A DNA stretch of 64,000 nt. It comes from Pseudomonas sp. B21-028 (lineage in GTDB: Bacteria > Pseudomonadota > Gammaproteobacteria > Pseudomonadales > Pseudomonadaceae). The position numbers and the translations under genes are program-made. This document shows positions 22,034 through 50,994 of this stretch, piece after piece. The notes under the pieces are model-generated. The model did not search any database, had not been told where the DNA came from, and saw nothing but the letters and a program-made list of their open reading frames with translations. Positions within the stretch are counted from its first letter, which is position 1; each line of letters opens with the position of its first letter. The stretch lies in the NCBI RefSeq assembly GCF_024749045.1, contig NZ_CP087184.1, positions 3,286,001 through 3,350,000 on the forward strand, written 5' to 3'.

Positions 22034-22056
22034 GCAAAATCGGAAGGACACCAGCC

Positions 22057-33645: not shown

Positions 33646-33747
33646 AATATGCGAAAGCCTCATAAATATTATTGTAGTTATCCTGCCTTCTTTACCGATA
33701 TTCGCACATTAAAGGAATTTTGCAAAATTCCATAACGGAATATCCAC
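33631..33747. promoter_or_regulatory. Palindromes in the AraC/aminotransferase divergent promoter
   Basis: GGAATTTTGCAAAATTCC at 33714-33731 is an 18-base perfect palindrome. Outside it, GTGGATATT at 33631-33639 (within the start of the AraC gene) and AATATCCAC at 33739-33747 form an exact inverted repeat about 100 bases apart. Both are candidates for AraC-regulator binding or looping. The 206-base gap is AT-rich. Confidence 0.55.
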
Positions 33748-33851
33748 CTGCCTCTTCAACGCAATTCATCCATGTGCCGATTCGGGCTACCGGCTGGAGG
33801 CTGACGCTGGAGATGATCGGCACACTACAACCGAGACCCAGAGAGATCGTC

Positions 33852-36832: not shown

Positions 36833-37396
36833 ATGAACACCACAAATCAAGAGATAATTGATCGGTATCCAACGTCCCTGCTGCTGTTGCACTGGGTGCG
36901 TGCCTTGCTCGTAGCCGGTCTCCTCTGGGCAGGCTGGCACATGACCGGGATGAATGATGAAGTGGCAAGCAAGTACGAGCTCTATTACCCCTGGCACAAA
37001 TCCTTCGGGGTGTTGACGTTCCTGGTGGTGCTGGTCCAGATCGCCCTGCGCTACATGACACCCAGGTTGCCGAAGCCGCTGCACACGCTGACCGGGCCTG
37101 AGCAGGTGATGTCAAACCTGGTGCAACGGGTCATGTATGGGCTTCTGGTGATCGTGCCGTTGATGGGTTACTCCATGTCGAGCACGTACACGATGAGCGA
37201 CGGGGTGTTCTTCTTCGGGGTCAACCTCCCGGAGCTGCTCCCGAAAAATGACGATTGGTTCGTCGTGTTCCAATGGCTGCACAAAGTACTCGCCTATACC
37301 CTGCTCGTCCTGATCCTGCTGCATATCGCCGGCGCCCTCAAGCATCGGTTCCTCGACCGGGATCCGCAAAAAGACGTACTGCGTCGCATGCTGTAA
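36833..37396 (+). CDS. Cytochrome b561
   Basis: A 187-residue four-helix diheme cytochrome b of the inner membrane. Candidate heme histidines are in LLLLHWVRAL, YPWHKSFGV, FQWLHKVLAY and LILLHIAGALKH. It passes electrons between quinol and periplasmic partners. GAGG lies 8 bases before the ATG at 36833; upstream ATGs at 36803 and 36812 are less well placed. Last gene of the aminotransferase run, though the roughly 100-base gap leaves co-transcription open. Confidence 0.9.
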   Translation: MNTTNQEIIDRYPTSLLLLHWVRALLVAGLLWAGWHMTGMNDEVASKYELYYPWHKSFGVLTFLVVLVQIALRYMTPRLPKPLHTLTGPEQVMSNLVQRVMYGLLVIVPLMGYSMSSTYTMSDGVFFFGVNLPELLPKNDDWFVVFQWLHKVLAYTLLVLILLHIAGALKHRFLDRDPQKDVLRRML

Positions 37397-37453: not shown

Positions 37454-38932
37454 TCAAAAGTCCTCCGGCAACGCCACGGCCTTTACCCGTACCGCATCCT
37501 CCGGCAACAGATACCCCTCCTTGATCGCCTGTTGTTTCGCATTGTCGAAACGACTCGCATAGTTTGCATAGCTGCCATAGAGCGCCTTCAACTGCCGCGC
37601 AGAGTACGGCACCTTGGTGTCGAAAGCCGAACCGCAACCAGTCTCCTGGTCGGTCAGGTAGGTGGCACTGGGCACCTTGATCCACGGCGGACGCACACCT
37701 CCCAGCAGATTACCGGTCTGCGGATCGCGGGCAACCGACGCTCCCTCGCGACGCACCCGCGCAGCCTTGGGCATCGGAGTGCCTTCGCGCACCCAGCGAT
37801 CCATCCCGTCCAAAATGGCGGACACGACCGTCTCCACCGGTTCGTCATAGAGGGTCTGGCATTGCGGATCGTTGCGTTTGTCGCCGTCAGCCGGATGCGG
37901 CTCCGCTCCGTCCGTGCCCTGGTCGGCCAGGCGCAGGTGCGGCATGCCGGTGATTTCGTAGTAACGCAGCTTCGGATGATCCGTATCGGCCGGCAGAGCG
38001 ATCGCCTGACGGGCATCGTGCACCACCTCGGTCTGACTGTAGACCGTCACGAAAGGCGCATCCTCGGGCATCTGTCGCGGAACTCTCAGTACCTCGCCGC
38101 CCAGGTCACCATAAACAACGTGCCCCGTCATGTAGGCGTCTATCAAGGGGCGCCCGTCGGGCATGCGCCACTGCTGATGACGGCCCTGATCGAGATAATC
38201 GAGCCAGAGCTGCCCGTTGATTGCCCAGGTATTGACGTAGATGCGCTTGACGTCGAGCCCCGGTGCGGGGCCCTGTTCAAGGTTGGACTTGAGCAGCAAG
38301 GCGAGCTGCGCGGCAATGCCCAGGGACTGCGGCGGATACTGATCGGGGCCGTTGCCGCGCCGGAACCGGTCACTGTCGTAGTAGCTGCCAAGTGGGGCGT
38401 AGCGCTTGTAGTCGTAGTGCCGCATGAAGTCCAGGTTCAGGTTGCGAGGCTCAGGATCCCAATCCAGGGTCTTGGGATCGTTCGCCGGCCTGTTGACGCT
38501 GAGGGTGTAGCCGACGAAGGCATACCCCCTGCGCATCAGGTAGTCGCGGCTGAGAATCCAGCCCGCGCCACGTTCGCCCATCCAACTGAACGGCTCCATC
38601 ACCACCGTGCCGTTGAACCGTCCAGGGTCCCTTGGTTTGCGAATGAGCAAGCGCGTCACGTAGGGAGCGTCGAACAACTGCTCGCCAGCCGCGGTAATCG
38701 CTGGCGCGAGCCCCACCATGTAGTACTCCTCCTCGACGTAGCCGAACCTATCGAGGTCAACATATTCGGTGCCGTGCCTCAACGCGGACCCGAGGGGCAG
38801 CCGGCCGCTGGGAGGCACCGGCGCGATTTGCGGCATGGCGGGCGTTTGCGCCGCGACGGTCCCGACCGTCGTCAGCGCAAGGAAAACCGCCAGGGACAAT
38901 GAGGTCAGCGGTAACTCACCCATGCGCGTCAC
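37454..38932 (-). CDS. Exported long alpha/beta hydrolase-domain protein (copy 1)
   Basis: A 492-residue exported protein with a signal peptide (SLSLAVFLALTTVGTVAAQ). It is of the uncharacterised alpha/beta hydrolase-domain type with RFNGTVVMEPFSWMGERGAGW near residue 105, RRGYAFVGYTLS and YYEITGMPHLRLAD near residue 320, where MPHLR may hold the catalytic His. The nucleophile is not obvious. It is a full-length paralogue of 43004-44512, sharing long blocks such as YLDQGRHQQWRMPD and VRVPRQMP-like runs. A GTG at 38932 overlaps the previous stop; an ATG at 38923 is an alternative. Confidence 0.8.
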   Translation of the reverse strand: MTRMGELPLTSLSLAVFLALTTVGTVAAQTPAMPQIAPVPPSGRLPLGSALRHGTEYVDLDRFGYVEEEYYMVGLAPAITAAGEQLFDAPYVTRLLIRKPRDPGRFNGTVVMEPFSWMGERGAGWILSRDYLMRRGYAFVGYTLSVNRPANDPKTLDWDPEPRNLNLDFMRHYDYKRYAPLGSYYDSDRFRRGNGPDQYPPQSLGIAAQLALLLKSNLEQGPAPGLDVKRIYVNTWAINGQLWLDYLDQGRHQQWRMPDGRPLIDAYMTGHVVYGDLGGEVLRVPRQMPEDAPFVTVYSQTEVVHDARQAIALPADTDHPKLRYYEITGMPHLRLADQGTDGAEPHPADGDKRNDPQCQTLYDEPVETVVSAILDGMDRWVREGTPMPKAARVRREGASVARDPQTGNLLGGVRPPWIKVPSATYLTDQETGCGSAFDTKVPYSARQLKALYGSYANYASRFDNAKQQAIKEGYLLPEDAVRVKAVALPEDF

Positions 38933-39303
38933 TTCCAGGCACCGATGGTTTTACCGCCAGGCAACCGCAGCGCCTGGAGGGCCCCGCCCGTCTTCCTGTC
39001 GTCCTTCATCGGTGCGAGCTGCAGATCGATCTTGTCGCCCGGCTGCAGGGTGTTGGCCATCCAGCCCTGACGCATCAGGATGTTCGGGCCACCGGCCTCG
39101 ATGGCCCAGGTCTGGGTCTTGTCGCCGGTCTGCACATCGACGAACAACCAGACATGAGGGTTCTTGTACTGCACCTCGCTCACCGTACCGTTGATTTCCA
39201 CCAGCTTAGTCATGTCGAAGGCCGAGTAGGAGTGGTGAGCAAAAGCAGCGGGCGCCTGCAGGCCCAGGAACGCCAGGCAAAACAGCATAGGGTTGAGATT
39301 CAC
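38929..39303 (-). CDS. DUF6152 family periplasmic protein (copy 1)
   Basis: A 124-residue exported protein, signal peptide ending FAHHSYSAFD. The family trait is two histidines just after the cleavage site, then a small beta-barrel (VEINGTVSEVQYKNPHVWLFVDV, GDKIDLQLAPMKD). The start is a GTG overlapping the preceding stop, with GGAG 7 bases upstream; its own stop overlaps the next GTG. So three genes are translationally coupled. The HH and NPHVW histidines could bind a metal, which is inference. The function of the family is unknown. Confidence 0.82.
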   Translation of the reverse strand: MNLNPMLFCLAFLGLQAPAAFAHHSYSAFDMTKLVEINGTVSEVQYKNPHVWLFVDVQTGDKTQTWAIEAGGPNILMRQGWMANTLQPGDKIDLQLAPMKDDRKTGGALQALRLPGGKTIGAWK

Positions 39304-40154
39304 TTTGCATCTCCTTGATGGTTGTCGGCCCGGTTCGGGTTGCGTCGTTCGGGAATGGTGGTGATTTCCGCCCCTGTCGCGGGGTCTATCGATTCGTTAT
39401 TGCTGTCTTCGCAGACGAACTCCATGAACTCGACGCCCTTGGGCGCACGGCGGAAAGTCAGCGGTGACCAACGCCATGGCTTGACCAGGGCATCCGGGTC
39501 TTCGACCATGCCGTCCACTTGGAGCAGGCCTTCGTCGTTGATGAAGATCCGCTCCCTGATGACCATGCGCGGGCCATGACCGAGCGCATCCTCGGCATGT
39601 CCATACTCGCCCAAGGTGGTCTCCTGGCGGATGTGGGTGGTTTCGACCACCAACACCTTGCCTTCCCAGCGTGCGGTCGAGTGACCTTCGAATGTCGGCG
39701 GCGCGGCCTCGGGATCCGGATGGGCACGTCCATCGAGGTAGATGCGGCGGGTCTCGCGCAGAAATTCCTGCGCCCAGTTGAGCTGCGTCGGGGTCTGCAT
39801 GATCTCGACGGCGTAGGGCCCGACCATATTTGTCGGCATGCCCAATACCTTGCACGAAGTCTTGAACTCGCTGCCGACCGCGGCGAGGGCTTCAGTCCGC
39901 TTCTTGAAGCTTTCGAGGTAGACGCCCTTCAGTTCCGGCAGGCTGCCGAACGGAGGGCCGATATTGGTATCCGGGTTGTCGGCACCGGTGCTGTTGACGA
40001 GCGGGTCCACGGAGCTTCCCACCGGCATCCACAGCCCGCTGAGATCGGGCACCTTCGGTGCAGGCGTTGCAGCGATGGCGAACAACGGGCAAGCGGATGC
40101 AGCCAGGGCGGCCAGCAGTGCAATGCCAGCGCGGGAAAGAATGATCGTTTTCAT
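39300..40154 (-). CDS. Exported WEGDTLVV-motif protein of unknown function (copy 1)
   Basis: A 284-residue exported protein with a signal peptide (residues 1-28, ending AIAA) followed by PDLSGLWMP. It carries the hallmark segment FEGHSTARWEGKVLVVETTHI near residue 165, seen in a widespread uncharacterised periplasmic family usually reading WEGDTLVVET, then RERIFINDEGLLQVDGMVEDPD. Two cysteines are present. It is a divergent paralogue of 42199-42966. It sits 17 bases after the beta-barrel gene and overlaps DUF6152. Confidence 0.75.
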   Translation of the reverse strand: MKTIILSRAGIALLAALAASACPLFAIAATPAPKVPDLSGLWMPVGSSVDPLVNSTGADNPDTNIGPPFGSLPELKGVYLESFKKRTEALAAVGSEFKTSCKVLGMPTNMVGPYAVEIMQTPTQLNWAQEFLRETRRIYLDGRAHPDPEAAPPTFEGHSTARWEGKVLVVETTHIRQETTLGEYGHAEDALGHGPRMVIRERIFINDEGLLQVDGMVEDPDALVKPWRWSPLTFRRAPKGVEFMEFVCEDSNNESIDPATGAEITTIPERRNPNRADNHQGDAK

Positions 40155-40171
40155 GTGTATATCCTGACGTT

Positions 40172-41509
40172 TCAGAAAGTGACCCAGGCAATGAACTGGA
40201 AGTAGGTGTTGGTCGATGCGCTGCCACTCTGCAGGCCACCGTTTCCAAGCCATTTGTCCGGCTTGTAGAAACCAATGAGCGGCGACAGTGTGAGGTTGTC
40301 CGTCACCATCCAGTCCAGGAACAGATCGACCTCGCGAGCGCTGTAGTCCCGCTCCTGTCGATCGGAGAGCTGGTGGAAGTCGAAGACCATCGCGTTGAGG
40401 GTCAACCTGTCGGTCGGTTTGACGGACAGCAGCACGTCGTGGGTCTGCATGTTCGAGGTGACCGAGCCGGCGTAATTCACCGCCACCTCACCTTGATAAC
40501 GTTTGCGATAGCCGCCCTGGAACAGGAAGTCCCAGCCTTCTGAATAGCGCGCATAGCGGTAGCTCACCGCCGGCTGCCACTTGACGTCGGCGAAGGTGTA
40601 GCCGGCGTCGAAGAACATCGCCCGCTGCGACCCCGAACGCTTTTCCTGACGGGCCACTTCGAAGGCGAAATCGGCGTTCTCGATGCCGGCGTTGCCCTGG
40701 CCACGAATGCTGTAGATGTCCATGCCCTTGCGCTCAAGCCGGTCAGCGAAGGCATAGCGCTTTTCGACGTCCAGGCCGTGCACGTAAGTCGAGCCGATGG
40801 AGCCGATGGGCGTGGTGTAGTCGATGGTGGCGGCGGCCACTTCAGTCTTGGACTGTCCGGGGTTATCCGACTTCAACCACAGCAGGCTGCCGTGAAGCCC
40901 CTCGGTGCCGCCCAGCTTCAAGACAGCGGTATTGCCGAACGCCAACCGCGGACCAAGGTAGTAGGCACCGCCGCGATTGAACCGGCCATCCGCAACGCCC
41001 TCGATGGGGTTGAAGGCCTTGCCGGGGGCGAAACCATCATCGGTAATCAGGAACCCGTCCACCGTGACGAGCTGGCGGCCGAAAGAGAAATCAACGCCAT
41101 CCTGGCCCAACGCCGGAATCAGATCGCCTGACTTCCAGCCCAGGTAGGCGTCTTCCACGGCGGTTCTTCGTTCGGTGCCGTCGGTGAGCGCTCCCGCGTC
41201 CCCATCGCCCCATGATCCGGTACTGATCATGCTTAAACCGCCATACACCGAGCCGGCAGTGATCTTGTCCGTCGTGCCGCTCAGGCCATATTTGGCGAAG
41301 CCTTCCTGCCAGCGCATCCTGCCGGGCTCCTTCTCCGGGTCTGCGATGTAATTCTTCTGGCTGCCGAACCAGCCAAAGCCGGCCCACAGATCGGCGTTCA
41401 GCACGGTGGTGCCATCGCCTTCGTTATAGAGCTCGTAGCCATGGGCCTGTGGCTCGAACGTACAGAGTGCAACCAGTGAAAGCATGGGGGCGTAGAGGGG
41501 GGTGCGCAT
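40172..41509 (-). CDS. Outer-membrane beta-barrel (porin-like) protein
   Basis: A 445-residue protein with a signal peptide and alternating amphipathic strands rich in aromatic girdle residues, ending in Phe (FIAWVTF), the usual signal for outer-membrane insertion. Segments such as VDFSFGRQLVTVDGFL, GGAYYLGPRLAFGN and VDLFLDWMVTDNLTLSPLIGFY are typical of alginate-export-like or substrate-specific porins. GGAGAG precedes the ATG at 41509. First gene of the left-facing arm, so it probably admits the substrate handled by the periplasmic module. Confidence 0.8.
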   Translation of the reverse strand: MRTPLYAPMLSLVALCTFEPQAHGYELYNEGDGTTVLNADLWAGFGWFGSQKNYIADPEKEPGRMRWQEGFAKYGLSGTTDKITAGSVYGGLSMISTGSWGDGDAGALTDGTERRTAVEDAYLGWKSGDLIPALGQDGVDFSFGRQLVTVDGFLITDDGFAPGKAFNPIEGVADGRFNRGGAYYLGPRLAFGNTAVLKLGGTEGLHGSLLWLKSDNPGQSKTEVAAATIDYTTPIGSIGSTYVHGLDVEKRYAFADRLERKGMDIYSIRGQGNAGIENADFAFEVARQEKRSGSQRAMFFDAGYTFADVKWQPAVSYRYARYSEGWDFLFQGGYRKRYQGEVAVNYAGSVTSNMQTHDVLLSVKPTDRLTLNAMVFDFHQLSDRQERDYSAREVDLFLDWMVTDNLTLSPLIGFYKPDKWLGNGGLQSGSASTNTYFQFIAWVTF

Positions 41510-41575
41510 GACGTCTCTCCTGTTTTTATATTTATGAGGCGAGCCGGGAGTGTTTCGGCTTGGGGTGCGCAAGCG

Positions 41576-41731
41576 GTAACCCAAATCAGCAAGTGCCACG
41601 CTTCGCTCGTCCTCAACGTCAGCCACGTTGTTGGGTAGAAACAGCTTTCGAGCTTCGAGAGGTTGCCGTTTTGGGTTACGCCCTCGATCTGTGCCGCCCT
41701 TATGCTGGCCCCATAAGAACGCATAAGAACG
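41576..41731. promoter_or_regulatory. Divergent promoter with repeat elements
   Basis: The 232-base gap between the two arms contains an inverted repeat, GTAACCCAAA at 41576-41585 and TTTGGGTTAC at 41670-41679, and an exact tandem repeat of CATAAGAACG at 41712-41721 and 41722-41731 just before the rightward ribosome-binding site. No regulator gene adjoins. These are candidate sites for a shared regulator of both arms. Confidence 0.5.
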
Positions 41732-41741
41732 AGGCCCCGTC

Positions 41742-42134
41742 ATGACCCCCACGCCACCCTTTCCGTCATTCCGTCAGGGGCTACGCCTGCTGACCATCGT
41801 CGCCTGCGGTGTGCTTCCCGCCATCGCCACAGCCCACCATTCGTTCGCGATTTTCGACCAGACCAAGACGATCACGGTCAAGGGTGTCGTCGAGCGCTTC
41901 GCCTGGACCAACCCTCACATCGCGATCTACCTCGATACGCCCGGTCCGCCACCGCAGAAAATCAAGATCGAGACCGGCAGCGTCAACGCATTGAGCCGCA
42001 CGGGCTGGACGGCGGACTCGATCAAGGCCGGCGAGAGCGCCGAGATCACCTACAAGCCGCTGAAAAACGGTGATCCCGGTGGGTTGCTGGTGGAAATCAA
42101 GATCGGTGACGTCGTGCTCACGGGCGGCGGATGA
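41742..42134 (+). CDS. DUF6152 family periplasmic protein (copy 2)
   Basis: A 130-residue exported protein, signal peptide ending ATAHHSFAIFDQ. As in copy 1, two histidines follow the cleavage site, then KGVVERFAWTNPHIAIYLD and AEITYKPLKNGDPGG strands. Identity to copy 1 is low outside the HHS, NPH and GW blocks, so the duplication is old or each copy was acquired separately. GAGG lies 7 bases before the ATG. First gene of the right-facing arm. Confidence 0.82.
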   Translation: MTPTPPFPSFRQGLRLLTIVACGVLPAIATAHHSFAIFDQTKTITVKGVVERFAWTNPHIAIYLDTPGPPPQKIKIETGSVNALSRTGWTADSIKAGESAEITYKPLKNGDPGGLLVEIKIGDVVLTGGG

Positions 42135-42198
42135 GTCCGCTCGCGCCCCTGCTTCATGGGTACTCGATGGCACAAACCAACAGGGTGGAGACGCTTGA

Positions 42199-42966
42199 AT
42201 GAAACCGACACGAACCTTGAATCCGGCAATGATTTTCCTGGGCATCGCCCTTGTGACATTCGCCGGAACGAGCATGGCGACAACGCCCAAGCAAGGCGCA
42301 GCCAGGGCTCCCGACATCAGCGGCACCTGGGAAAGAACCCCGGACGACTGGTTCGGTGAGAACCCGGACGATCCGGTGCATCCGGGCGGACCAATGGACC
42401 TGAAGGAGCCTTACGCCAGTGAGTACGCCGAGCTGAAGAAGAAGGAAGCCGCGGCAAACGAAGCCGGCACGCCGCTGGCCACCACCAGTGCCAGATGCCT
42501 GCCGGAAGGCATGCCGGTGCTGATGGCGGCGCTCTTCCCGATCCAGATCATCTACGACGATAAGCAAGTGGTGGTCTTGGGCGAGTATCTCCAGCAGGTG
42601 CGCCGGATTCTTCTGAACGAAGCGATGCCGCCGAAGGAGAAGCTGGACCCGACCTATCAAGGCCATTCGCGCGGCCACTGGGAAGGCGACACCCTCGTCG
42701 TGGAAACCTTGGGCGTGCGCACCGACGACGTGGCGTTCTACGGCGTTCCCCACAGCAAGGACATGAAGATCACCGAACGTTTGCGGCTGACCGCGCCGAA
42801 TCACTTGGAGGACCAGGTGCTGATCGAGGATCCGCAGGTGCTCAACACGCCTTATCGCTTCACGTTCGAATACAAGCGGTCCGACTACCGCATCCAAGAG
42901 TACGTCTGTGAAAACAACCAGATCGTGATCGACAGCGAGGGCAAGACGAGCCTGCGCCGTGACTGA
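42199..42966 (+). CDS. Exported WEGDTLVV-motif protein of unknown function (copy 2)
   Basis: A 255-residue exported protein with a signal peptide (ending SMA), then APDISGTWERTP. It has the canonical YQGHSRGHWEGDTLVVETLG near residue 155, ITERLRLTAPNHLEDQVLIEDP and YVCENNQI near the end. It matches the 39.3-40.2 kb protein in order of motifs. GGAG lies 8 bases before the ATG. No enzyme motif is recognised; a binding or chaperone role in the periplasm is possible. Confidence 0.75.
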   Translation: MKPTRTLNPAMIFLGIALVTFAGTSMATTPKQGAARAPDISGTWERTPDDWFGENPDDPVHPGGPMDLKEPYASEYAELKKKEAAANEAGTPLATTSARCLPEGMPVLMAALFPIQIIYDDKQVVVLGEYLQQVRRILLNEAMPPKEKLDPTYQGHSRGHWEGDTLVVETLGVRTDDVAFYGVPHSKDMKITERLRLTAPNHLEDQVLIEDPQVLNTPYRFTFEYKRSDYRIQEYVCENNQIVIDSEGKTSLRRD

Positions 42967-43003
42967 CACCACCTCCCCTTCGACAACCCTTTGGAGTCAC
43001 CGG

Positions 43004-44512
43004 ATGGAACGACTGATGCCCTTCGACATCCTGCGACCAACGTTGCAGGGCGCCCTTGTGTCGCTGCTCCTGCTGTCGAGCGCGTTCGCGGAGGTGCCCC
43101 GGATGCCCACGGTGGTGCCGGTGCCGCCTTCAGGCAAGTCACCGCTCTCGTCGGCCAACGCCCGGGGTACCGAATACAGCGACCTCGACCGGTATGGCTA
43201 CGTCGAGGAGGAGTTTTACCTGCAAGGCGTGGCGCCGGCCATTACCGCTGCGGGTAAAAGCCTCTTCGAGGCGCCCTACACCACGCGCATTCTGGTCCGT
43301 AGACCGGCGGACCCGGCGCGCTTCAATGGCACGGTAGTGATCGAGCCCTTCAGTTGGTTCGGCGAGCGCGGCGCCGGCTGGATCCTGACCCGCGATTACC
43401 TGTTGCGTCGCGGCTATGCCTACGTCGGCTACACGCTGAACATCAACAAGCCGCAGGTGGATCCCAAGTTCATCTCGGAAACCCCGGCCGACGAGGCCGA
43501 GCAGATCGCCCAGTACGGACGGATCGTCAATTTCGAATTCATGCGCCGCTTCGACTACGCGCGCTATGCGCCATTGGGCAGCTATTACGATCCGGAACGC
43601 TTCACCCGTGGCAACGGGCCTGATCCGTTCGTGCCACAGTCCCAGGGCATCGGGGCACAGCTGGCGTTGCTGCTGAAAACCCATTCGGCGCAAAGCCCGC
43701 TGGCGAACCTCGACGTACGCCGGGTCTACGTCAACAGCTGGGCCGTGACGGCGCAAGTCTGGATGGACTACCTCGACCAGGGCCGGCACCAGCAATGGCG
43801 CATGCCCGACGCGACGCCGCTGATCGACGGCTATATGACCGGCCGCATGGCCTATGGCGAGGTTGGCGGCGATGTTATTCGCGTGCCGCGGCAGATGCCT
43901 GCGGGCGTGCCGTTCGTGACCGTCTACAGCCAGTCCGAACTGATGCACGACGTGCTCGAAGGCATCGACCTGCCGCCCGACACCGACAGCCCGCAACTGC
44001 GTTATTACGAAGTGACCGGCATGCCGCACCTGCGCCTGGCCGACCTCGGCACGGAGCATACCGAACACGTCGCGGCGGACATTGGCAAGGGCGACGACCC
44101 ACAGTGCCGGACGCTGTACGACGAGCCGGCAGAATTGGTGGTCTCGGCACTGCTCGATGGCATGGACCGATGGGTGCGCGAGGGCAAGCCGATGCCCAAG
44201 GCCCCCCGCGTGCTGCGCGAGGGCAAGACCGTCGTGCGCGACCCCGCTACCGGCAACCTGCAAGGAGGCGTGCGTCCGCCATGGATCCAGGTACCCGGCG
44301 CGACCTACCTCACTGACCAGGAAACCCACTGCGGCCTGATCTACGACACCAAGGTGCCCTACGCCAAGGACCGGCTCGGGCAGCGCTATGGCAGCTTCAG
44401 CAACTACGAACGGCAGTTCGAAGACGCCAAGGCTCTTTCGATCAAGGAAGGTTATCTCCTCCCCGAAGATGCGCCGGGCCTGCGTCCGATCGCCAACCCC
44501 CAAGACTTCTAA
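43004..44512 (+). CDS. Exported long alpha/beta hydrolase-domain protein (copy 2)
   Basis: A 502-residue exported protein with a signal peptide (ALVSLLLLSSAFA), paralogous along its length to copy 1. Shared blocks include PPSGKSPL, TEYSDLDRYGYVEEEFYLQG, RFNGTVVIEPFSWFGERGAG and MPHLRLADLGTEHTEH. Insertions (FISETPADEAEQIAQYGR) distinguish it. GGAG lies 7 bases before the ATG at 43004; the frame opens at a GTG at 42959 inside the preceding gene. Hydrolysis of an ester or lactone is the family expectation but not shown. Confidence 0.8.
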   Translation: MERLMPFDILRPTLQGALVSLLLLSSAFAEVPRMPTVVPVPPSGKSPLSSANARGTEYSDLDRYGYVEEEFYLQGVAPAITAAGKSLFEAPYTTRILVRRPADPARFNGTVVIEPFSWFGERGAGWILTRDYLLRRGYAYVGYTLNINKPQVDPKFISETPADEAEQIAQYGRIVNFEFMRRFDYARYAPLGSYYDPERFTRGNGPDPFVPQSQGIGAQLALLLKTHSAQSPLANLDVRRVYVNSWAVTAQVWMDYLDQGRHQQWRMPDATPLIDGYMTGRMAYGEVGGDVIRVPRQMPAGVPFVTVYSQSELMHDVLEGIDLPPDTDSPQLRYYEVTGMPHLRLADLGTEHTEHVAADIGKGDDPQCRTLYDEPAELVVSALLDGMDRWVREGKPMPKAPRVLREGKTVVRDPATGNLQGGVRPPWIQVPGATYLTDQETHCGLIYDTKVPYAKDRLGQRYGSFSNYERQFEDAKALSIKEGYLLPEDAPGLRPIANPQDF

Positions 44513-44532
44513 CCCACAGTGGGAGAAAGCAC

Positions 44533-45021
44533 ATGTCATCAGCACCGATCATTGACTGGCTCTACGCCACACCGGTGAGCACCGCCATCAGGGACATGCT
44601 CTGGGTCGTGCCCACGGTCCAGTCCATTCATATCGTGGCCATTGCGGTGATCTTCGGCTCCGCCGTCATCTCCGACCTTCGGCTGGCCGGTGTGTTCGCC
44701 ACCGACGAGCCCGTGCGCGGCGTTGTCCGTCGCTATTACCCGTGGATGCGCAATGCGCTCATTGTCCTGCTCCTGACGGGGTTGGTCATGACCATCGGCG
44801 AGCCGGACCGGGTCCTCGTCAACTCGACGTTCTGGCTGAAGATGGCCTTGGTGGTCAGTGCGTTCACCCTGGCCTGGTGGGTCCGGCGGCCCTTGCTGCG
44901 CCCTGCCGATCCGGCACGCAGCGAAGGCGTGGACAGCTTCGTCAAGACGCTGGCCTGGCTGTCGATCGCCTTGTGGTGCGTCGTGATCTTCTGCGGCCGC
45001 TGGATCGCCTACACGATCTAG
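44533..45021 (+). CDS. DUF6644 family membrane protein (first of tandem pair)
   Basis: A 162-residue inner-membrane protein with four or five hydrophobic segments. Family marks are VQSIHIVAIAVIFGSAVISDLRL near residue 30 (conserved His and Asp in the membrane), a YPWMRNALIVLLLTGLVM helix, FWLKMALV, and the closing WCVVIFCGRWIAY. The His/Asp/Lys/Arg residues in the membrane suggest ion or cofactor handling; function unknown. Starts 20 bases after the hydrolase. Confidence 0.78.
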   Translation: MSSAPIIDWLYATPVSTAIRDMLWVVPTVQSIHIVAIAVIFGSAVISDLRLAGVFATDEPVRGVVRRYYPWMRNALIVLLLTGLVMTIGEPDRVLVNSTFWLKMALVVSAFTLAWWVRRPLLRPADPARSEGVDSFVKTLAWLSIALWCVVIFCGRWIAYTI

Positions 45022-45053
45022 TGACTTTCAATCAAAGCGCTCAGGTACTCGCC

Positions 45054-45542
45054 ATGGATATTCAATCAAACCTGCAAGCCCTCGAGGCCACCCCTATCGC
45101 CTCCCTGATCAGGGAGTCGGGCTTCGCTTTTCCAACCCTGGAATCGGTACACGTGGTCGGCATCGCTCTCGTGTTCGGGACCATCGCCGTGGTGGACTTG
45201 CGACTGCTGGGCATTGCCTCCCATCGCCGCAGCGCGCTACGGCTGATCCAGGAATTACTGCCGTACACCTGGGTCGCCTTCGCGGCATGCGTGATCACCG
45301 GCCTGCTCATGTTCATCTCCAACGCCTCCACCTATGCCCAGAACCCGCTTTTCTGGGGAAAGATGGGGCTGTTGCTGTTGGCGGGCCTCAACATGGGGAT
45401 TTTCCACCTGGGGGTCTTTCGGCGGATCGGTGAATGGGACGCGACGCTGCCGCCTCCTGGCCGTGCCCGTGTCGCCGGCTTTGGTTCGATGGTGCTGTGG
45501 GCAGGCGTGATCTTTCTTGGCCGCTGGATCGCGTTTTTCTGA
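45054..45542 (+). CDS. DUF6644 family membrane protein (second of tandem pair)
   Basis: A 162-residue membrane protein paralogous to the preceding gene, with matching LESVHVVGIALVFGTIAVVDLRL, FWGKMGLLLL and WAGVIFLGRWIAFF ends. The long frame opening at 44742 is not the gene; the ATG at 45054 matches the paralogue start. Its stop overlaps the next start (TGATG). The two proteins may form a heterodimer. Confidence 0.78.
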   Translation: MDIQSNLQALEATPIASLIRESGFAFPTLESVHVVGIALVFGTIAVVDLRLLGIASHRRSALRLIQELLPYTWVAFAACVITGLLMFISNASTYAQNPLFWGKMGLLLLAGLNMGIFHLGVFRRIGEWDATLPPPGRARVAGFGSMVLWAGVIFLGRWIAFF

Positions 45543-46303
45543 TGGCTCGCCTACTGCCACGTTGGCGTCGGCCCGCCACAGGCCTGCCCGGCGACGACTC
45601 AAGCCACGCAATCAACGTGGTACGCCCGGTGTCCGGTCGGTGGGAGTCCCTGGCGATGCTGCTTGCGACCCTGGCGGTCATCGCCGGCGTGGCCGGTTAT
45701 GTGCTGTTGCGCGCCCAGGCAATCGGCCCGCCCACCGCATTGAGCTGGCAGGTGCGTTCCTTCGATGGCCTGGGTGCGGTCGATCAGGCCATTCATAGCG
45801 CGCTGTTACCTGCCGGCGAAGAGATCATCTGGTTCAACAACGATACCGGCGGCTGGATCACCCTGGAGCATGCCCAGGAACTGGTGCTGCCGCCGTTCTA
45901 CCGCGACGCATTCTGGAAGACCAACGGCCAGGTGCACTGGCAATTGATTCTGCCTGGCACCCACCAACCCCACGCCCGCTCCGGCGACCAGCACGTTGAC
46001 GATGCGCCCCCCGCAGACAAGAGCGCCAGCGAAGTCTCGCAAGCCACCCTGGGCCAAGGCGCCACGGTCTACTACGGCTCCGGCGGCAGCGTGCCGGGCC
46101 AGAGCGCCTACCTGCTGGTGATCGGGCACGCCCATGCCGGGGTCATGTGGGCCAACCAGGCGACGATCTGGGTCCACCGGGACCCGAACGCCCCCTACCC
46201 CGGCATCGTCAAGCCCGAATCGCTGGTCAGCAAAGGTTGGCGCCAGGTCATCCCCTATGACGGTACCCGCGAAGTCGAACGCGTAAAAGGAACCCAGCCA
46301 TGA
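45542..46303 (+). CDS. DUF6162 family membrane-anchored protein
   Basis: A 253-residue protein with one N-terminal transmembrane segment (LAMLLATLAVIAGVAGYVLL, residues about 38-57) and a periplasmic domain with FYRDAFWKTNGQVHWQLILP and HAHAGVMWANQATIWVHRD. Several histidines (ITLEHAQ, VHW, THQPHARSGDQHVDD, GHAHAG) could bind metal. I recognise it as DUF6162, which accompanies metal ABC importer genes. Overlaps DUF6644 upstream and the binding-protein gene downstream (4 bases). Confidence 0.75.
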   Translation: MARLLPRWRRPATGLPGDDSSHAINVVRPVSGRWESLAMLLATLAVIAGVAGYVLLRAQAIGPPTALSWQVRSFDGLGAVDQAIHSALLPAGEEIIWFNNDTGGWITLEHAQELVLPPFYRDAFWKTNGQVHWQLILPGTHQPHARSGDQHVDDAPPADKSASEVSQATLGQGATVYYGSGGSVPGQSAYLLVIGHAHAGVMWANQATIWVHRDPNAPYPGIVKPESLVSKGWRQVIPYDGTREVERVKGTQP

Positions 46304-47235
46304 CCGCCTCTGCAAGACACCGCACACCGCTGCGCCGCTGGATCGCGCTGCTGATGCTGATACCCGCCCTCCTGCTCCTCGGCCAGGCACACGCCGAGGG
46401 CAAGAAGCTCAAGGTCGGCGTCACCCTGCATCCCTACTACAGCTTCGTGGCAAACATCGTCGGCGATCGGGCGGAGGTCGTTGCGCTCATTCCGGCGGAG
46501 GCGAACCCGCACAACTACCAGCCGCAACCCGCCGACATCACCCGCGCGATGAGCCTCGATGCCCTGGTCGTCAACGGCATCGGCCACGATCAATGGGCCT
46601 TCCAGATCGTCAAGGCCGCCGGACGCGGCGAGAACCTGCCGATCATCCAGGCCAATGCCACGGTTGCCCTCATTCCCATCGGCGGCGACCAGGGCGGTGC
46701 CAAGGTGGTCAACCCGCATACCTTCGTCTCCACCACCGCGGCGATACAACAGGTGTTCGAGATCGCCCGCCGCTTGGGCGAACTGGACCCGGACAACGCG
46801 GCGATCTATCGACACAACGCCCTGGCGTACGCCGGGCGTATCCGTGCGCTGCGGGCACGCTTCATGACGCGCTTTGCCAACCTCGACTTGTCTTCGTTCC
46901 GGTGCGCCAGCACACACGCCGGCTACGACTACCTGATGCAGGAGTTCGGCCTGTTCGTGAGTGCCGTCATCGAGCCGCGTCACGGCGTTGCGCCGACTGC
47001 GCGGCAGCTGGCCAATACCATCGACGCGATCAAGAAAGCCAACGTGCGTGTGTTGTTTGCCGAGAAGTACTTTTCCATCGACCTGGCCAAACCTATCGAG
47101 GCGGCGACCGGCGTCAGGGTCTTCGCCCTGTCCCATATCACCGGCAGCAGCTACAGCGCCGACGAATTCGAGGTGGCGATGAGCGAGAACCTCGAAACCC
47201 TGGCCGAAGCCGTTGAGTTCACACAACAACAATGA
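46300..47235 (+). CDS. Metal ABC transporter substrate-binding protein (ZnuA/TroA-like)
   Basis: A 311-residue periplasmic binding protein of cluster A-I. Signal peptide residues 1-32. Candidate ligands: His in TLHPYYSF and EANPHNYQP, His in VNPHTFVS (the usual D-P-H-x-W position), His in ASTHAGYDYL and an acidic residue in the last third. There is no His-rich loop as in many zinc-specific ZnuA proteins, so zinc, manganese or another metal (or a chelate) is open. It overlaps DUF6162 and the ATPase gene. Confidence 0.88.
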   Translation: MTASARHRTPLRRWIALLMLIPALLLLGQAHAEGKKLKVGVTLHPYYSFVANIVGDRAEVVALIPAEANPHNYQPQPADITRAMSLDALVVNGIGHDQWAFQIVKAAGRGENLPIIQANATVALIPIGGDQGGAKVVNPHTFVSTTAAIQQVFEIARRLGELDPDNAAIYRHNALAYAGRIRALRARFMTRFANLDLSSFRCASTHAGYDYLMQEFGLFVSAVIEPRHGVAPTARQLANTIDAIKKANVRVLFAEKYFSIDLAKPIEAATGVRVFALSHITGSSYSADEFEVAMSENLETLAEAVEFTQQQ

Positions 47236-47249
47236 AGGAGGAACCAGCG

Positions 47250-47930
47250 ATGCGCGGACCCGCCGTGGTGTTCGATAACGTTTCACTGCAACTGGGCGGT
47301 ACGCGAGTGCTCGACGCCGTGAGCTTCCGGATCGAGGCCGGCGCCCTCCATTGCCTGGTCGGTCCGAACGGCGGTGGCAAGACCTCCCTGGTGCGCGCAC
47401 TGCTGGGACAAATGCCGCACTCGGGGGCCATCCGCTTTGAAGGCGGGCTCACCAAACCGTTGGGGTATGTCCCGCAGTTGCTGGATTTCGACCGCAACGT
47501 GCCGATGACCGTCAACGATGTCATGGCCCTGCTCGGTCAACGCCGACCGGCGTTCCTGGGTTCGGCCCGCTCCACCCGGGCGGCCACTGCCGGAGCCCTG
47601 GAGCGTACCGGCGTCGCCGGAATGGGCGACAAGCCCTTTGGCAGCCTGTCCGGTGGCGAACGCCAGCGTGTGCTGCTGGCCCAGGCGATCACCCCGGTGC
47701 CGTGGCTGCTGATCCTCGACGAACCGACCGCCGGCATCGACGAAGCGGGCATTCTGCTGGTGGAAGCGCTGGTGGCCGAGCTGCACAAGAGCGGCGTCAC
47801 CATCCTCTGGATCAACCATGACCTGGGCCAAGTCAGGCGCATTGCGCAATCGGTCACCGGCATCAACCAGCGGGTGATATTCGATGGCCCGCCCCATCAG
47901 GTCGCCCAGCATCTGGAGAGCAGCCGATGA
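47250..47930 (+). CDS. Metal ABC transporter ATPase
   Basis: A 226-residue ABC ATPase with Walker A GPNGGGKTS near residue 34, Q-loop in GYVPQ, signature LSGGERQRV, Walker B LLILDEPTAG and switch His in WINHDLG. AAGGAGG ends 8 bases before the ATG at 47250, which makes it a better start than the ATG at 47232 that overlaps the previous stop. It pairs with the next permease. Confidence 0.93.
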   Translation: MRGPAVVFDNVSLQLGGTRVLDAVSFRIEAGALHCLVGPNGGGKTSLVRALLGQMPHSGAIRFEGGLTKPLGYVPQLLDFDRNVPMTVNDVMALLGQRRPAFLGSARSTRAATAGALERTGVAGMGDKPFGSLSGGERQRVLLAQAITPVPWLLILDEPTAGIDEAGILLVEALVAELHKSGVTILWINHDLGQVRRIAQSVTGINQRVIFDGPPHQVAQHLESSR

Positions 47931-48832
47931 ACACCTTCTACACGTTCATCCGCGACCAACTCCAGGCGCTCGCCGCGAGTCACCTGCTGCCGCAGCCGTT
48001 CGAATACGAGTTCGTGATCAATGCGCTGCTCTGCGCGCTACTTATCGGGCCGTTGCTGGGTGTGTTGGGTTCCATGGTGATGATCAAGCGCATGGCCTTC
48101 TTCAGCCAGGCGGTGGGCAATGCAGCGATGACCGGCGTGGCCATTGGCGTGCTGATCGGTGAATCCTACACCTCCCCCTACCTGTCGATGTTCGGCTTCT
48201 GCGTGTTGTTCGCCCTGACGCTGAAGTACACCCAGCACCGCACCACCCTGTCCAACGACACGCTGATCGGCGTGTTCCTGTCGATCTCGCTGGCGGTCGG
48301 CGCCTCGTTGCTGTTGTTCGTGTCGGCGAAAATCAACACCCATGTGATGGAAAGCGTGTTGTTCGGCTCCATCCTGGCGGTGGACCACACCGACATGAAC
48401 GTGCTGCTGGTCGTGACGGCGACCTGTGCCCTGGTCGGGTTGCCGCTGTACAACAGCATTCTACTGGCCAGCCTCAATCCGAGCCTGGCGCATGCCCGCG
48501 GCGTGCCGGTGCGTGTCGTCGAATACCTGTTCGTCGTGCTGGTTACTCTGGTGACGGTCGCGTGCCTGAAGATCATCGGCGCCGTGCTGGTCGAAGCCCT
48601 TTTGCTGATACCGGCGGCCGCCGCGCGCAATGTCAGTCGTTCTCTCCCGGGGCTGGTCACCCTTGCCATCCTGATTGCAACGTTTGCCTGCGTGGTTGGC
48701 ATCCTGGCACCGATGCAATACCAGATCCCCGTGCCCACCGGCGGCGCCATCGTGATCGTCGCCGCCCTGGTGTTCGTCGCGACCGCCGTCATCCGCGCCT
48801 CCACGTCCCGATTCAGGGGTGCCAGCGTATGA
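47927..48832 (+). CDS. Metal ABC transporter permease (ZnuB-like)
   Basis: A 301-residue inner-membrane permease of the ABC-3 family with eight or nine helices; GPLLGVLGSMVMIKRMAFFSQAVGNAAMTG near residue 40 and LKIIGAVLVEALLLIPAAAARN near residue 220 are family blocks. It overlaps the ATPase gene by 4 bases (ATGA) and the following binding-protein gene likewise. Confidence 0.92.
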   Translation: MNTFYTFIRDQLQALAASHLLPQPFEYEFVINALLCALLIGPLLGVLGSMVMIKRMAFFSQAVGNAAMTGVAIGVLIGESYTSPYLSMFGFCVLFALTLKYTQHRTTLSNDTLIGVFLSISLAVGASLLLFVSAKINTHVMESVLFGSILAVDHTDMNVLLVVTATCALVGLPLYNSILLASLNPSLAHARGVPVRVVEYLFVVLVTLVTVACLKIIGAVLVEALLLIPAAAARNVSRSLPGLVTLAILIATFACVVGILAPMQYQIPVPTGGAIVIVAALVFVATAVIRASTSRFRGASV

Positions 48833-49818
48833 AGCGGCTCAGCCTGTCACGTCGATCCTGGCTTGGGGTGCTGGCACTGCTGCTGGGCAGCCAGCTCAAT
48901 GCCCTCGCCGGCCCTCGGGTGCTGGTCGCGCTGCCGGGTGTGCATGCGCTCACCGCGGCGCTCAGCGAGGGTACGAGCATCGAGGTGGTGCGTATTCCAC
49001 CAGACGCTGCCGTGCCCATGGAAAGCCAGGCCAATGCGCTGTCGCGCCTGGACGCCAAGGTGTTCCAGCAAGCCGACGCGGTGGTCACCCTGAGCAGCCT
49101 CTGGCATGCAGATCCACTGTTTGCGGCGGCCCGTCGCCACAACCTGCGGATTATCGAGATCGATGCCTCGCGCTCCTGGGACCCGATCAAACCCGGCGTG
49201 GCGGTGGTCCGTGCGCCAGCGAACGACGTGCCCTGGGTCGGCCCGCGTGATGTCGGTGTCGGCCCGTCGCCCTATGCCTGGCTCGGTCCCATCAACGCCA
49301 TGCGCATGTCAGCGCTGATCACCGCCGACCTGGTGCGCCTGGCCCCCGCCGATGCGCCTCGGATCACCCGCAACCTCGCCGCGCTGGAGGGCCGATTGCG
49401 CCAGCTCAAGGCGGCATACGGTGCCCGGCTGATGGAGCTGCCGGATCCGCGGGTGCTGTCGCTGGCCAACGAATTCATCTACCTGTTCGGCGAGTTCGAC
49501 ATCTTTGTCGATGGCTGGTTTGTCCGGCAGGACGTCGACTGGAGCGACGCCGACCGTGCCGCGCTGACCCGATACCTGCGCGAGCGTGACATCCACGTGG
49601 TCGTCCACAAATGGGCACCGGACGCCAGGATCGCCAAGGCCATCGAAGACGGCGGCGCTCGGTTGCTGATACTGGACGCGGGCAACCCGGGCCTGTTCGC
49701 CGACGCGGCCAACGGGTACGAGGCGCTCCTGCGCTCGAACCTGGATGCACTGCTGGCGGCCTTCACCGGGGCCGGCAACGACAACAAGCACGGCGACGAG
49801 CGTTCGCCTCCCCAATGA
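48829..49818 (+). CDS. Second TroA/ZnuA-fold binding protein with altered metal site
   Basis: A 329-residue exported protein with the cluster A-I fold (signal peptide to about residue 27). At the position of the conserved D-P-H-x-W-L it reads SPYAWLGPINAMRM, so the metal-ligand His is Tyr. A His remains in SSLWHADPLF and another in VHKWAPDAR. It may bind a chelate, hand metal to the first binding protein or act as chaperone. Translationally coupled to the permease (ATGA). The longer frame opening at 48562 is not the gene. Confidence 0.82.
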   Translation: MKRLSLSRRSWLGVLALLLGSQLNALAGPRVLVALPGVHALTAALSEGTSIEVVRIPPDAAVPMESQANALSRLDAKVFQQADAVVTLSSLWHADPLFAAARRHNLRIIEIDASRSWDPIKPGVAVVRAPANDVPWVGPRDVGVGPSPYAWLGPINAMRMSALITADLVRLAPADAPRITRNLAALEGRLRQLKAAYGARLMELPDPRVLSLANEFIYLFGEFDIFVDGWFVRQDVDWSDADRAALTRYLRERDIHVVVHKWAPDARIAKAIEDGGARLLILDAGNPGLFADAANGYEALLRSNLDALLAAFTGAGNDNKHGDERSPPQ

Positions 49819-49840
49819 TCAAGCCGACCGTGGAGACCTT

Positions 49841-50164
49841 ATGAAACTGCCCTGTTCAGTGCTTCGGCTATCGATGGCCGCTGCCGTTCTGTTCTGTCAG
49901 GCGGCCTTCGCCCATGCGCCCGTTTTCGACTGTTACATCGACAGCGACGACTGGGTGAAGTGCGAGGCGGGATTCACCGACGGCAGCACGGCCGCCGGCC
50001 GGAAAATCCATGTCCGGGACATGAGCGACAAGGTGCTACTAGAAGGCACCGTAGGCCAGGACAACACCTACCGGTTCCAACCTCCGAGCGGAAGCTACTC
50101 GGTGCTGTTCCTCGGCGGCGACGGCCATGACGTCACGATCCAGTCCTCCGACATTTCAAAGTGA
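49841..50164 (+). CDS. Small exported protein of unknown function
   Basis: A 107-residue protein with a signal peptide (residues 1-25, ending AFAHAP) and a single beta-sandwich-like domain (VHVRDMSDKVLLEGTVG-type strands; YRFQPPSGSYSVLFLGGDGHDV). Two cysteines are close together (FDCYIDSDDWVKCEAG). It resembles carboxypeptidase-regulatory-like or transthyretin-like folds. It lies 22 bases after the second binding protein and abuts DUF4198. Confidence 0.65.
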   Translation: MKLPCSVLRLSMAAAVLFCQAAFAHAPVFDCYIDSDDWVKCEAGFTDGSTAAGRKIHVRDMSDKVLLEGTVGQDNTYRFQPPSGSYSVLFLGGDGHDVTIQSSDISK

Positions 50165-50172
50165 AACCGACC

Positions 50173-50994
50173 ATGACGAATAAGAAAACACTGCTCCAGA
50201 CCCTTGCTGCTGCTTCCATCTGCATGACCGGCGTTGCACAGGCGCATTTCCAGATGCTCTATGTCGAGGAAGCGGCATTGCAGCGCGGGGAACAACTGGA
50301 GTTCGCGGTCGTCTTCACCCACCCCTTCGCCGGCGGCCCCACCATGGCCATGGGTGAGCCGCGCATTTTCAGCCACACCAGTTCGCTGGGCGGGGAGAAA
50401 GCCGACCTGCTCAAGTACCTGCGCCCCATCGAATGGCACACCCGCGATAACCGCGCGGCCGCCTACCGCGCGACGATTCCACGGGAGCTGATGCGTTCGA
50501 TGGGCGACCATGTCTTCGTGCTCGAACCCGAGCCCTACCTGGAAGCCGAGGAAGACCTGTACATCCAGCAGTTCACCAAGCTGATCGTCAACGTCGGCGG
50601 CGTGCCCGGCCAATGGGCAGAGCCCCAGGGCTTGTCGGTGGAGATCCAGCCCTTGAGCAAGCCTTATGCGAACTGGACGGGCGGCGTGTTCCGCGCCCGA
50701 GTGCTGGCCGATGGCAAGCCCGTCCCGCAAGCCAGGGTCGAAATCGAATACCTCAACCACGCCATCGACTTCGAGAACAACGCCTTTGGCCAACAAGCCT
50801 ATGTCACCGCCCCGCAACCGTCCTTCAACGTGCTGAGCACCTACGCCGATGCCGAAGGTGTCGTGACCATCGGCCTGCCCCGCGCCGGCTGGTGGGGCAT
50901 CGCGGCACTCGACATCGGCGCAACGAAAACCCACAAGGGTAAACCCCTGTCCCAGGACGCCGTGTTGTGGGTGCAGGCCAGGGACATGAAATGA
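50173..50994 (+). CDS. DUF4198 domain periplasmic protein (metal-uptake associated)
   Basis: A 273-residue exported protein; signal peptide ends AQAHFQML, exposing an N-terminal His-Phe as in DUF4198/NikK-like proteins. Further marks: FTHPFAGGPTM near residue 50, GDHVFVLEPEPYLEAEEDLYIQQFTK and GWWGIAAL near the end. DUF4198 proteins assist nickel or cobalt uptake systems, so it suggests a transition metal. The ATG at 50173 is used; a GTG at 50161 overlaps the previous stop. Last gene of the right arm. Confidence 0.8.
   Translation: MTNKKTLLQTLAAASICMTGVAQAHFQMLYVEEAALQRGEQLEFAVVFTHPFAGGPTMAMGEPRIFSHTSSLGGEKADLLKYLRPIEWHTRDNRAAAYRATIPRELMRSMGDHVFVLEPEPYLEAEEDLYIQQFTKLIVNVGGVPGQWAEPQGLSVEIQPLSKPYANWTGGVFRARVLADGKPVPQARVEIEYLNHAIDFENNAFGQQAYVTAPQPSFNVLSTYADAEGVVTIGLPRAGWWGIAALDIGATKTHKGKPLSQDAVLWVQARDMK

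Follow-up and report, generated by a model that had tools for sequence, protein, structure and literature searches.

What does a pair of divergent gene sets for exported proteins do next to a metal-type ATP-binding cassette (ABC) importer, and do the two form one system? The question is raised by a 64-kb stretch (the window, to which coordinates refer unless stated otherwise) of the Pseudomonas sp. B21-028 genome, a single 6.49 Mb contig. A preliminary description made from the letters alone had seen there two versions of one three-gene module (DUF6152, a WEGD protein and an alpha/beta-hydrolase) facing away from a shared promoter, with importer genes continuing one of them, and all of the genes that it named were found where it had placed them and with the families it had given, as judged by profile searches and translations of open reading frames (ORFs). 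The best-supported reading of the locus, on the comparisons described below, is an AraC-type regulon that would express periplasmic machinery for metal release together with catabolic enzymes of amine type. The likely unit exceeds the interval originally delimited and reaches upstream to ∼30.9 kb, taking in a cytochrome b561-like gene as well as the aminotransferase, aldehyde dehydrogenase, permease and AraC regulator genes, all left out at first, whose promoters have a motif in common. Its features are the following.

30907..32355, minus strand: APC-type amino acid/amine permease (NCBIfam APC families, all below cut-off), conserved beside the regulator in relatives and with a motif copy upstream
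32483..32498, plus strand: motif copy with 2 mismatches before the permease (pattern scan)
32683..33663, minus strand: AraC-family regulator, probable activator of the regulon (HTH_18; ortholog co-occurrence with the cluster)
33775..33790, minus strand: motif copy with 1 mismatch before the aminotransferase (pattern scan; conservation in relatives)
33852..35228, plus strand: class III pyridoxal phosphate-dependent aminotransferase; the first ORF start is 33720, but 33852 fits the relatives, some of which begin at MSEAK
35260..36726, plus strand: aldehyde dehydrogenase, nearest to phenylacetaldehyde dehydrogenase StyD (640 bits, under the cut-off of 800)
36833..37396, plus strand: cytochrome b561-like membrane protein (39 bits, cut-off 170), its place conserved in relatives
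37454..38932, minus strand: left-arm Abhydrolase_10 protein without the nucleophile serine (TWAING; profile, alignment and tree, where it forms a separate branch)
38929..39303, minus strand: left-arm DUF6152 protein, predicted mature N-terminus HHSY (Pfam, sequence)
39300..40154, minus strand: left-arm WEGD protein (WEGKVLVV here), matching no Pfam family
40172..41509, minus strand: outer-membrane beta-barrel, Alginate_exp-like by a weak match (27.1 bits against a cut-off of 25.2)
41576..41591, plus strand: promoter motif GTANCCCAAAWCNGCA, exact, barrel side (pattern scan)
41664..41679, minus strand: promoter motif, exact, DUF6152 side, inverted relative to the barrel-side copy (pattern scan)
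41742..42134, plus strand: right-arm DUF6152 protein, predicted mature N-terminus HHSF (Pfam, sequence)
42199..42966, plus strand: right-arm WEGD protein, predicted small beta-barrel (no Pfam family; structure model, Foldseek)
43004..44512 (alternative start 42959), plus strand: right-arm Abhydrolase_10 protein, predicted pseudo-hydrolase with Ala247 at the nucleophile elbow (profile, alignment, model)
44533..45021, plus strand: first DUF6644 membrane protein, with a CopD match too (Pfam)
45054..45542, plus strand: second DUF6644 membrane protein (Pfam)
45542..46303, plus strand: DUF6162 protein, FpvK-like by profile and place
46300..47235, plus strand: FpvC-like metal-binding protein (Pfam ZnuA) with five conserved His (profile, structure-sequence matches, alignment)
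47232..47930, plus strand: FpvD-like ABC ATPase (profile, relatives)
47927..48832, plus strand: FpvE-like ABC-3 permease (profile, relatives)
48829..49818, plus strand: FpvF-like second binding protein (Pfam ZnuA) without FpvC-type His ligands (profile, alignment)
49841..50164, plus strand: FpvJ-like small exported protein, predicted mature N-terminus His (no Pfam family; relatives)
50161..50994, plus strand: DUF4198 protein, predicted mature N-terminus His (Pfam)

The argument for a single system starts in the intergenic region shared by the two arms. Aligned over the window and 16 loci it contains two conserved inverted blocks, and the 16-base motif GTANCCCAAAWCNGCA occurs exactly in 2 places in the genome, both between the arms. 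A search for sigma-70 consensus promoters over 33.0-51.4 kb found 0 against 3.2 expected, so that we infer the shared promoter from this conserved motif pair. Comparisons among relatives use 20 named loci from beta- and gammaproteobacteria (L013-L029, L031, L032, L044), found by a scan with exact peptide patterns of one protein, an approach that favors close relatives; L001/L024, L004/L032 and L005/L016 look like the same genomes twice, with both members counted in the motif tallies here and in the N-terminal His and five-His tallies below. With up to 2 mismatches the motif has 85 copies vs 1 of the reversed pattern in 834 kb (window plus loci, some genomes twice). A copy precedes the DUF6152 gene in all 20 named loci, the aminotransferase gene in each of the 15 whose stretch includes it, and the permease gene in 4 of the 6 whose stretch includes it. 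Enzymes that are not linked to the arms still carry it, namely aminotransferase and permease in L072, aminotransferase in L074 and dehydrogenase in L075; in L073 and L076 the enzymes adjoin the arms after all, past the first fetched stretch. One-mismatch copies lie before the aminotransferase gene and at genome positions 145491 and 3377027, the latter 27 kb past the window end; this last pair may mark further regulon members or be chance. In L072 (1-4199), ∼5 kb from the unlinked regulator, a second barrel gene (52% identical) lies with an aldehyde dehydrogenase-like gene and with a permease gene that has a motif copy, and here too the regulon may have further members.

Which protein would act at the motif? 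An ortholog of the AraC-family regulator (69-84% identity) is present in 6/6 genomes with the cluster, and in 3/3 genomes without it, one of which has a distant Abhydrolase_10, the best matches are at 27%, 27% and 24%; by this co-occurrence the regulator and the motif would form a pair. The aminotransferase is kept at 82-94% identity in the same 6/6 genomes, a search that covered cluster genomes only, and is unlinked in some of them. At 8 of the 14 neighbor junctions of the locus genes overlap by 1-4 bases, with overlapping frames from the second DUF6644 gene to that of the second binding protein. A motif found at the promoters of both arms and of outlying catabolic genes supports the original claim of one coordinated system. 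Terminator-like matches number 21 vs 11.6 expected over 33.0-51.4 kb, five of them inside right-arm genes on the plus strand (45104, 45927, 48298 twice, 49873), and scans of the window for Rfam elements at gathering scores and for tRNAs returned none.

Whether the importer belongs with the arms was to be checked, according to the preliminary description, by asking if the ABC genes and hydrolase modules are ever neighbors. They adjoin in 19 of the 20 named loci, where the entire right arm through DUF4198 is found with a hydrolase 77-95% identical to that of the window (94-95% in Pseudomonas mediterranea and two other Pseudomonas, L013-L015); the exception is Paracidovorax L028, in which DUF6152, WEGD, hydrolase and both DUF6644 genes are present and the ABC genes are not. 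Profile searches of 48 genomes of the genus, own included, detected Abhydrolase_10 in 6, and a divergent DUF6162 (E values of 4.8e-6 to 2.9e-10) lies ∼1.1 kb from the hydrolase in exactly those 6 and in no others. Canonical DUF6162 (E < 1e-39) occurs in 35 of these 48 genomes; among the six with the cluster, five hold both forms and the window genome holds the divergent one only. The cluster is rare, since a close hydrolase (E 1e-100) was found in only 2 of 148 genomes drawn evenly from the family, own included. The arms and the ABC genes belong together, and their linkage is beyond chance. More distant loci from alphaproteobacteria (L030, L033-L043; 63-70% identity) have homologues of DUF6152 and WEGD in 8 of 12 cases and the DUF6644 pair in 8 of 12. 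As a separate observation, the hydrolase module of Nitrospirillum L034 (4842-17230) encloses CoA ligase, thiolase-like and cyclase-family proteins, a different catabolic partner, and apparent indolepyruvate oxidoreductase genes (read by eye) are present as well.

What, then, does the importer carry? Pfam places its binding proteins in ZnuA and its permease in ABC-3, relatives are annotated as zinc ABC transporters, and a plain ZnuABC-type metal importer had been proposed. The best solved structures for the first binding protein are 6ru4, 6r3z and 6r6k (E 7e-84 for 6ru4; 285 bits), which we take to be FpvC of Pseudomonas aeruginosa; the next different structure, YfeA, follows at E 5.6e-26, ZnuA-named entries reach ≤38 bits and other zinc-type ones ≤94. 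Curated zinc and manganese binding-protein profiles fall short of their cut-offs, the best being AztC at 114.5 bits (cut-off 350), with ZnuA at 47.1 bits (cut-off 268). The canonical Pseudomonas locus L009 runs in the order PepSY_TM, 180-aa protein, small exported protein, DUF6162, binding protein, ATPase, permease, second binding protein, and L010 and L011 have the same set over the stretch that begins with the PepSY_TM relative and ends with the second binding protein. That order is the one published for the pyoverdine iron-release system, fpvGHJKCDEF, in the passages cited from PMC6954188, and the L009 binding protein matches 6ru4 at E 5.7e-157. Identity to the canonical copies in L009-L011 is 32-55% for the window's J, C, D, E and F proteins, and window K is linked to canonical K by the DUF6162 profile only. 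The C-like protein has five His positions that are conserved in 25/25 cluster sequences, in 3/3 canonical ones and in L012; four of the five are Gly in the deposited variant 6r6k. None of the five is present in the window's second binding protein, in which the places were matched by eye and the alignment covers four of them. Again in passages of PMC6954188, iron is bound by FpvC and reduced by FpvG, the ligand of FpvF is pyoverdine, and FpvDE is the predicted importer. The window has the Fpv-type arrangement of two different binding proteins beside one ABC-3 transporter, plus K and J; the PepSY_TM reductase FpvG and FpvH were not found in the window cluster, and four PepSY_TM genes lie elsewhere in the same genome.

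By homology and gene order, then, the putative zinc importer and the pyoverdine iron-release set fpvJ-K-C-D-E-F are paralogues, and the plain ZnuABC-type assignment is not supported. That an ordinary zinc or manganese importer lies by chance downstream of an unrelated catabolic module, as the Pfam families and the annotation of relatives might suggest, is very improbable in view of the structure scores, the linkage that is intact across Pseudomonas and Variovorax and the run of overlapping frames that extends into the importer from the second DUF6644 gene. In L012 (5800-12000), from a genome of the same taxonomic order, J, two DUF4198 genes, K, C, D, E and F stand together without a hydrolase, so that DUF4198 may be an old partner of the Fpv-like transporter type. 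DUF4198 genes of Caulobacter are described in the cited part of PMC3751524 as Fur-regulated and strongly induced by iron limitation.

A connection to metal chelates is also seen in some of the relatives. In Variovorax L044 a motif-bearing dehydrogenase gene is followed on the same strand by a TonB receptor gene, and a PepSY_TM gene comes after DUF4198; in Paracidovorax L028 a receptor 68% identical to that of L044 and PepSY_TM pieces come after the second DUF6644 gene. The PepSY_TM similarity of L028 (14651-16160) is in three pieces and more than one frame, a decayed gene or a sequence error. Among solved structures both receptors match 9rvq best (E 3.7e-100 for L028 and 1.8e-101 for L044), with FoxA/CntO entries trailing at E 1.5e-35 and 1.3e-39. 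This structure was deposited for CrtA of Bordetella pertussis, an importer of chelated copper whose gene is followed by PepSY_TM genes in more than 75% of loci, as given in the cited portion of PMC12914433, and by this best structure match the L028 and L044 receptors appear to be CrtA-like. Among alphaproteobacterial neighbors there are two TonB receptors and a PepSY_TM gene in L030 and a TonB receptor and, read by eye, a FecR-like gene in L041. In L026, one of the 20 named loci, a TonB receptor lies 1.3 kb past DUF4198 with another gene between. The window genome, searched with the Variovorax PepSY_TM protein, gave an empty result that carries no weight; away from the cluster (L068, genome positions 2639944-2642040) it has a TonB receptor 33-35% identical to that of L044 and possibly of CrtA type. 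The FpvC homology suggests Fe(II) as the metal and, with CrtA-like receptors in relatives, Fe and Cu are both possible. An importer closest to Fpv, and a CrtA-like receptor with PepSY_TM in L028 and L044, lend support to the initial idea of a metal bound to an organic compound.

Much the same evidence, the order and homology to fpvJKCDEF and the TonB receptor with PepSY_TM in some relatives, would be expected if a xenosiderophore (or chalkophore) were used without catabolism of the ligand, with Fpv-type release serving a foreign metallophore and the amine genes only sensing or detoxifying. We consider this unlikely, because the motif is common to aminotransferase and permease, no Fur box was found in the window, and the aminotransferase is so well kept in all six cluster genomes, even where it is unlinked.

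The remaining periplasmic parts add hints about metal binding. Predicted mature N-terminal His residues, by a simple pattern, are found in 33/33 right-arm DUF6152, 28/28 FpvJ-like and 25/25 DUF4198 proteins; the background is 69/685 called ORFs and 49/174 crudely exported ORFs, a control that is not clean as it includes the clusters' own proteins, and the result is a hint of metal (Cu) binding. The model of the right-arm WEGD protein (predicted local distance difference test score, pLDDT, 85.0) is weakly like intracellular lipid- and retinoid-binding beta-barrels, with a best Foldseek E value of 6.3e-4 and a template modeling (TM) score of 0.60 by target length and 0.35 by query length. The outer-membrane barrel is conserved, divergent to DUF6152, in relatives except L044; against solved structures it gave 2 sequence matches only, at E 0.14-0.15, both to an epimerase.

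The N-terminal His residues, the CopD match of the first DUF6644 protein and the presence of cytochrome b561 in the unit could alternatively mean that importer, CopD-like and His-starting proteins bring Fe or Cu for an enzyme of the pathway, for example a periplasmic oxidase or the cytochrome b561 branch, whose substrate is no chelator. Such metal supply would account equally for the motif and the AraC co-occurrence. It seems to us rather improbable, given an F-like second binding protein with a known relative that binds the siderophore, the CrtA-like chelate receptor in two Burkholderiales loci, the lack of a candidate metalloenzyme among the named genes and an N-terminal His count without a clean control.

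Do the hydrolases of the two arms hydrolyze anything? Both satisfy the Abhydrolase_10 profile (PF20091) at 321-344 bits, and the right-arm model (pLDDT 85.8) has a hydrolase fold, with residue 247 between strand 240-245 and helix 247-258 and with Foldseek matches that are dienelactone hydrolase- and PETase-like; the sequence itself had 0 matches among solved structures. Modeling used folded alignments of 24 of the 120 best relatives plus 2 window and 18 loci rows for the hydrolase, and of 28 of 120 plus 2 window and 6 loci rows for WEGD, the relatives being the best 120 of 873 and the best 120 of 891, respectively. A 183-row alignment, to which loci contributed ORFs > 380 residues only, has Ala at the nucleophile position in 161 rows, Ser in 21 and Thr in 1. 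The Ala rows comprise all best 120 of 873 relatives, both window proteins and 39 loci rows, and the 22 distant rows carry Ser (21) or Thr (1). The elbow motif is mostly GxSQS in distant Abhydrolase_10, SWAVTA in the window clade and TWAING in the left arm; Ser245 is replaced by Thr in the left arm and by Ala in one relative. The catalytic His is kept in 181/183 rows and the acid (Glu or Asp) in 182/183. The Ala-bearing clade is thus, from alignment and model, very likely not one of classical serine hydrolases, though a different residue could conceivably provide activity. Cleavage of a metallophore-like ester by these proteins, with ZnuABC-like metal import and one arm per substrate or stage, was the interpretation first put forward, and the fold, the Foldseek matches and the conserved His and acid are what one would expect of it. 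We now regard it as very unlikely, since the nucleophile Ser is replaced in both arms and in all best 120 of 873 relatives. A search of one literature library found no paper there mentioning DUF6162, DUF6152, DUF6644, PF20091, Abhydrolase_10 or PF19649.

The notion of one arm per substrate or stage fares no better. The left arm is present only in the window, L014 and L020, which is 2/20 relatives (L016 was counted as lacking it on the basis of L073, a neighboring contig of that genome). Both versions of the module are indeed there, but not as copies in the same order: the left arm reads barrel-WEGD-DUF6152-hydrolase and the right arm DUF6152-WEGD-hydrolase, and between arms the hydrolases are 64% and the WEGD proteins 31% identical. 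In a tree of 57 rows, 16 of them from the best 120 relatives, left-arm hydrolases fall outside the Pseudomonas/Burkholderiales clade (support 100/100) and group together with support 81/100. This placement rules out a recent tandem duplicate; by the tree the two arm versions are old relatives and the left arm was acquired separately. Its position is between barrel and cytochrome b561, genes that adjoin in most relatives, and it would therefore be a later addition, so that one arm per stage is no general feature.

Putting these pieces together, we tentatively propose, as possible but short of probable, the uptake, demetallation and catabolism of a metal-chelating amine by one AraC-controlled system. 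The AraC-type regulator would control several transcription units for use of such a compound; the outer-membrane barrel, in Variovorax and Paracidovorax along with the CrtA-like TonB receptor, would admit the chelate to the periplasm, where DUF6152, the WEGD beta-barrel protein and the serine-less alpha/beta-hydrolase may act as binding or handling proteins. The Fpv-like J, K, C, D, E, F set would take the metal from the chelate, with the C-like protein catching the reduced ion, the F-like protein holding the organic ligand and the D/E transporter importing the ion. The metal-free amine would then enter via the APC permease, and the class III aminotransferase together with the aldehyde dehydrogenase would break it down. 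In its most specific form, with an amine losing its bound Fe or Cu in the periplasm and with both halves used, one as metal and the other as nitrogen or carbon source, the proposal is doubtful, and that the demetallated compound is the very compound degraded by the enzymes lies somewhere between doubtful and tentatively possible.

A number of observations weigh against this proposal. Over the whole genome, with 1 mismatch at most, the motif and the reversed pattern are equally frequent at 5 copies each, so that single weak copies mean little and the case rests on position and conservation. No motif copy precedes the permease in L013 and L015, or either aminotransferase or permease in L075. The AraC comparison has a control of 3 genomes only, and paralogues at 34-38% occur in 4/6 cluster genomes. 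Neither aminotransferase nor dehydrogenase reaches the curated cut-off of any function with a name among those shown, so that an amine is only the presumed substrate; searched against solved structures at the strict limit of E 1e-130, the aldehyde dehydrogenase gave 0 matches, which is uninformative. A Fur box with up to 3 mismatches is absent from the window. The ABC genes are found in 0/12 of the alphaproteobacterial loci (flanks ≤10 kb), a hydrolase module without the importer, which suggests that two modules came together in beta- and gammaproteobacteria. At E 1e-8 the Pseudomonas cluster loci yielded no relative of the receptors of L044 and L028 or of the PepSY_TM proteins of L044 and L009, other receptor kinds not being sought. 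Finally, as described in the cited passages of PMC6954188, the ligand is left unmodified in the canonical Fpv system.

If the proposal is right, an Fpv paralogue would have come under a catabolic AraC regulator, and a serine-less hydrolase and a lipocalin-like protein would be its new parts for handling the ligand. The clade without a nucleophile, within the widespread Abhydrolase_10 family, and the Fpv-like importer together imply that the annotations 'hydrolase' and 'zinc ABC transporter' both mislead, and the DUF6152, DUF6644, DUF6162, DUF4198 and WEGD families gain one testable context as well as a motif that predicts member genes.

Other parts of the window deserve brief mention. Next to the cluster, 19799-28288 is another nitrogen-compound catabolic stretch, with two creatininase-family genes (19799, 22990), a cytosine/purine-type permease (24473) and an amidase (26891); relatives of the genes at 19799, 20600 and 21883 lie just past DUF4198 in L031. 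At 42-5617 a VgrG-type spike gene (Gp5_trimer_C, Phage_GPD) is followed three genes on by one for a PAAR-like protein that carries a GHH2 nuclease-toxin domain; this is probably an effector island of a type VI secretion system.

How does the locus compare with systems that are already known? With Abhydrolase_10 serine hydrolases its hydrolase-like proteins share the fold and the catalytic His and acid positions, but they differ in having Ala for the nucleophile Ser throughout the examined clade. Operons for the degradation of amines (histamine, phenylethylamine and putrescine pathways) combine a class III aminotransferase and an aldehyde dehydrogenase with AraC control. The window resembles them in its aminotransferase, aldehyde dehydrogenase, permease and AraC regulator, whereas its motif also fronts a periplasmic metal-handling operon and there is no named substrate. 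A literature search on the FpvC structure codes and on the CrtA/AraC/aldehyde dehydrogenase combination gave nothing relevant. In receptor and PepSY_TM sequence L044 and L028 are like the CrtA-CrpH copper-chelate uptake of Bordetella pertussis, as far as the cited portions of PMC12914433 and PMC13038864 describe it, although the regulator is of another kind and no relative of their receptors was found in the Pseudomonas clusters at E 1e-8. The closest parallel is to fpvGHJKCDEF, with J, K, C, D, E and F homologues, K-C-D-E-F in the same order, and two binding proteins of which one has five conserved His and one does not. In contrast to that system J is at the end, G and H are not adjacent, no Fur box was found in the window, DUF4198 has been added, and the set is in an operon with DUF6152, WEGD, the predicted pseudo-hydrolase and DUF6644. 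Fpv-type metal release is known from siderophore uptake, where the siderophore is recycled; here it is apparently wired to catabolic genes.

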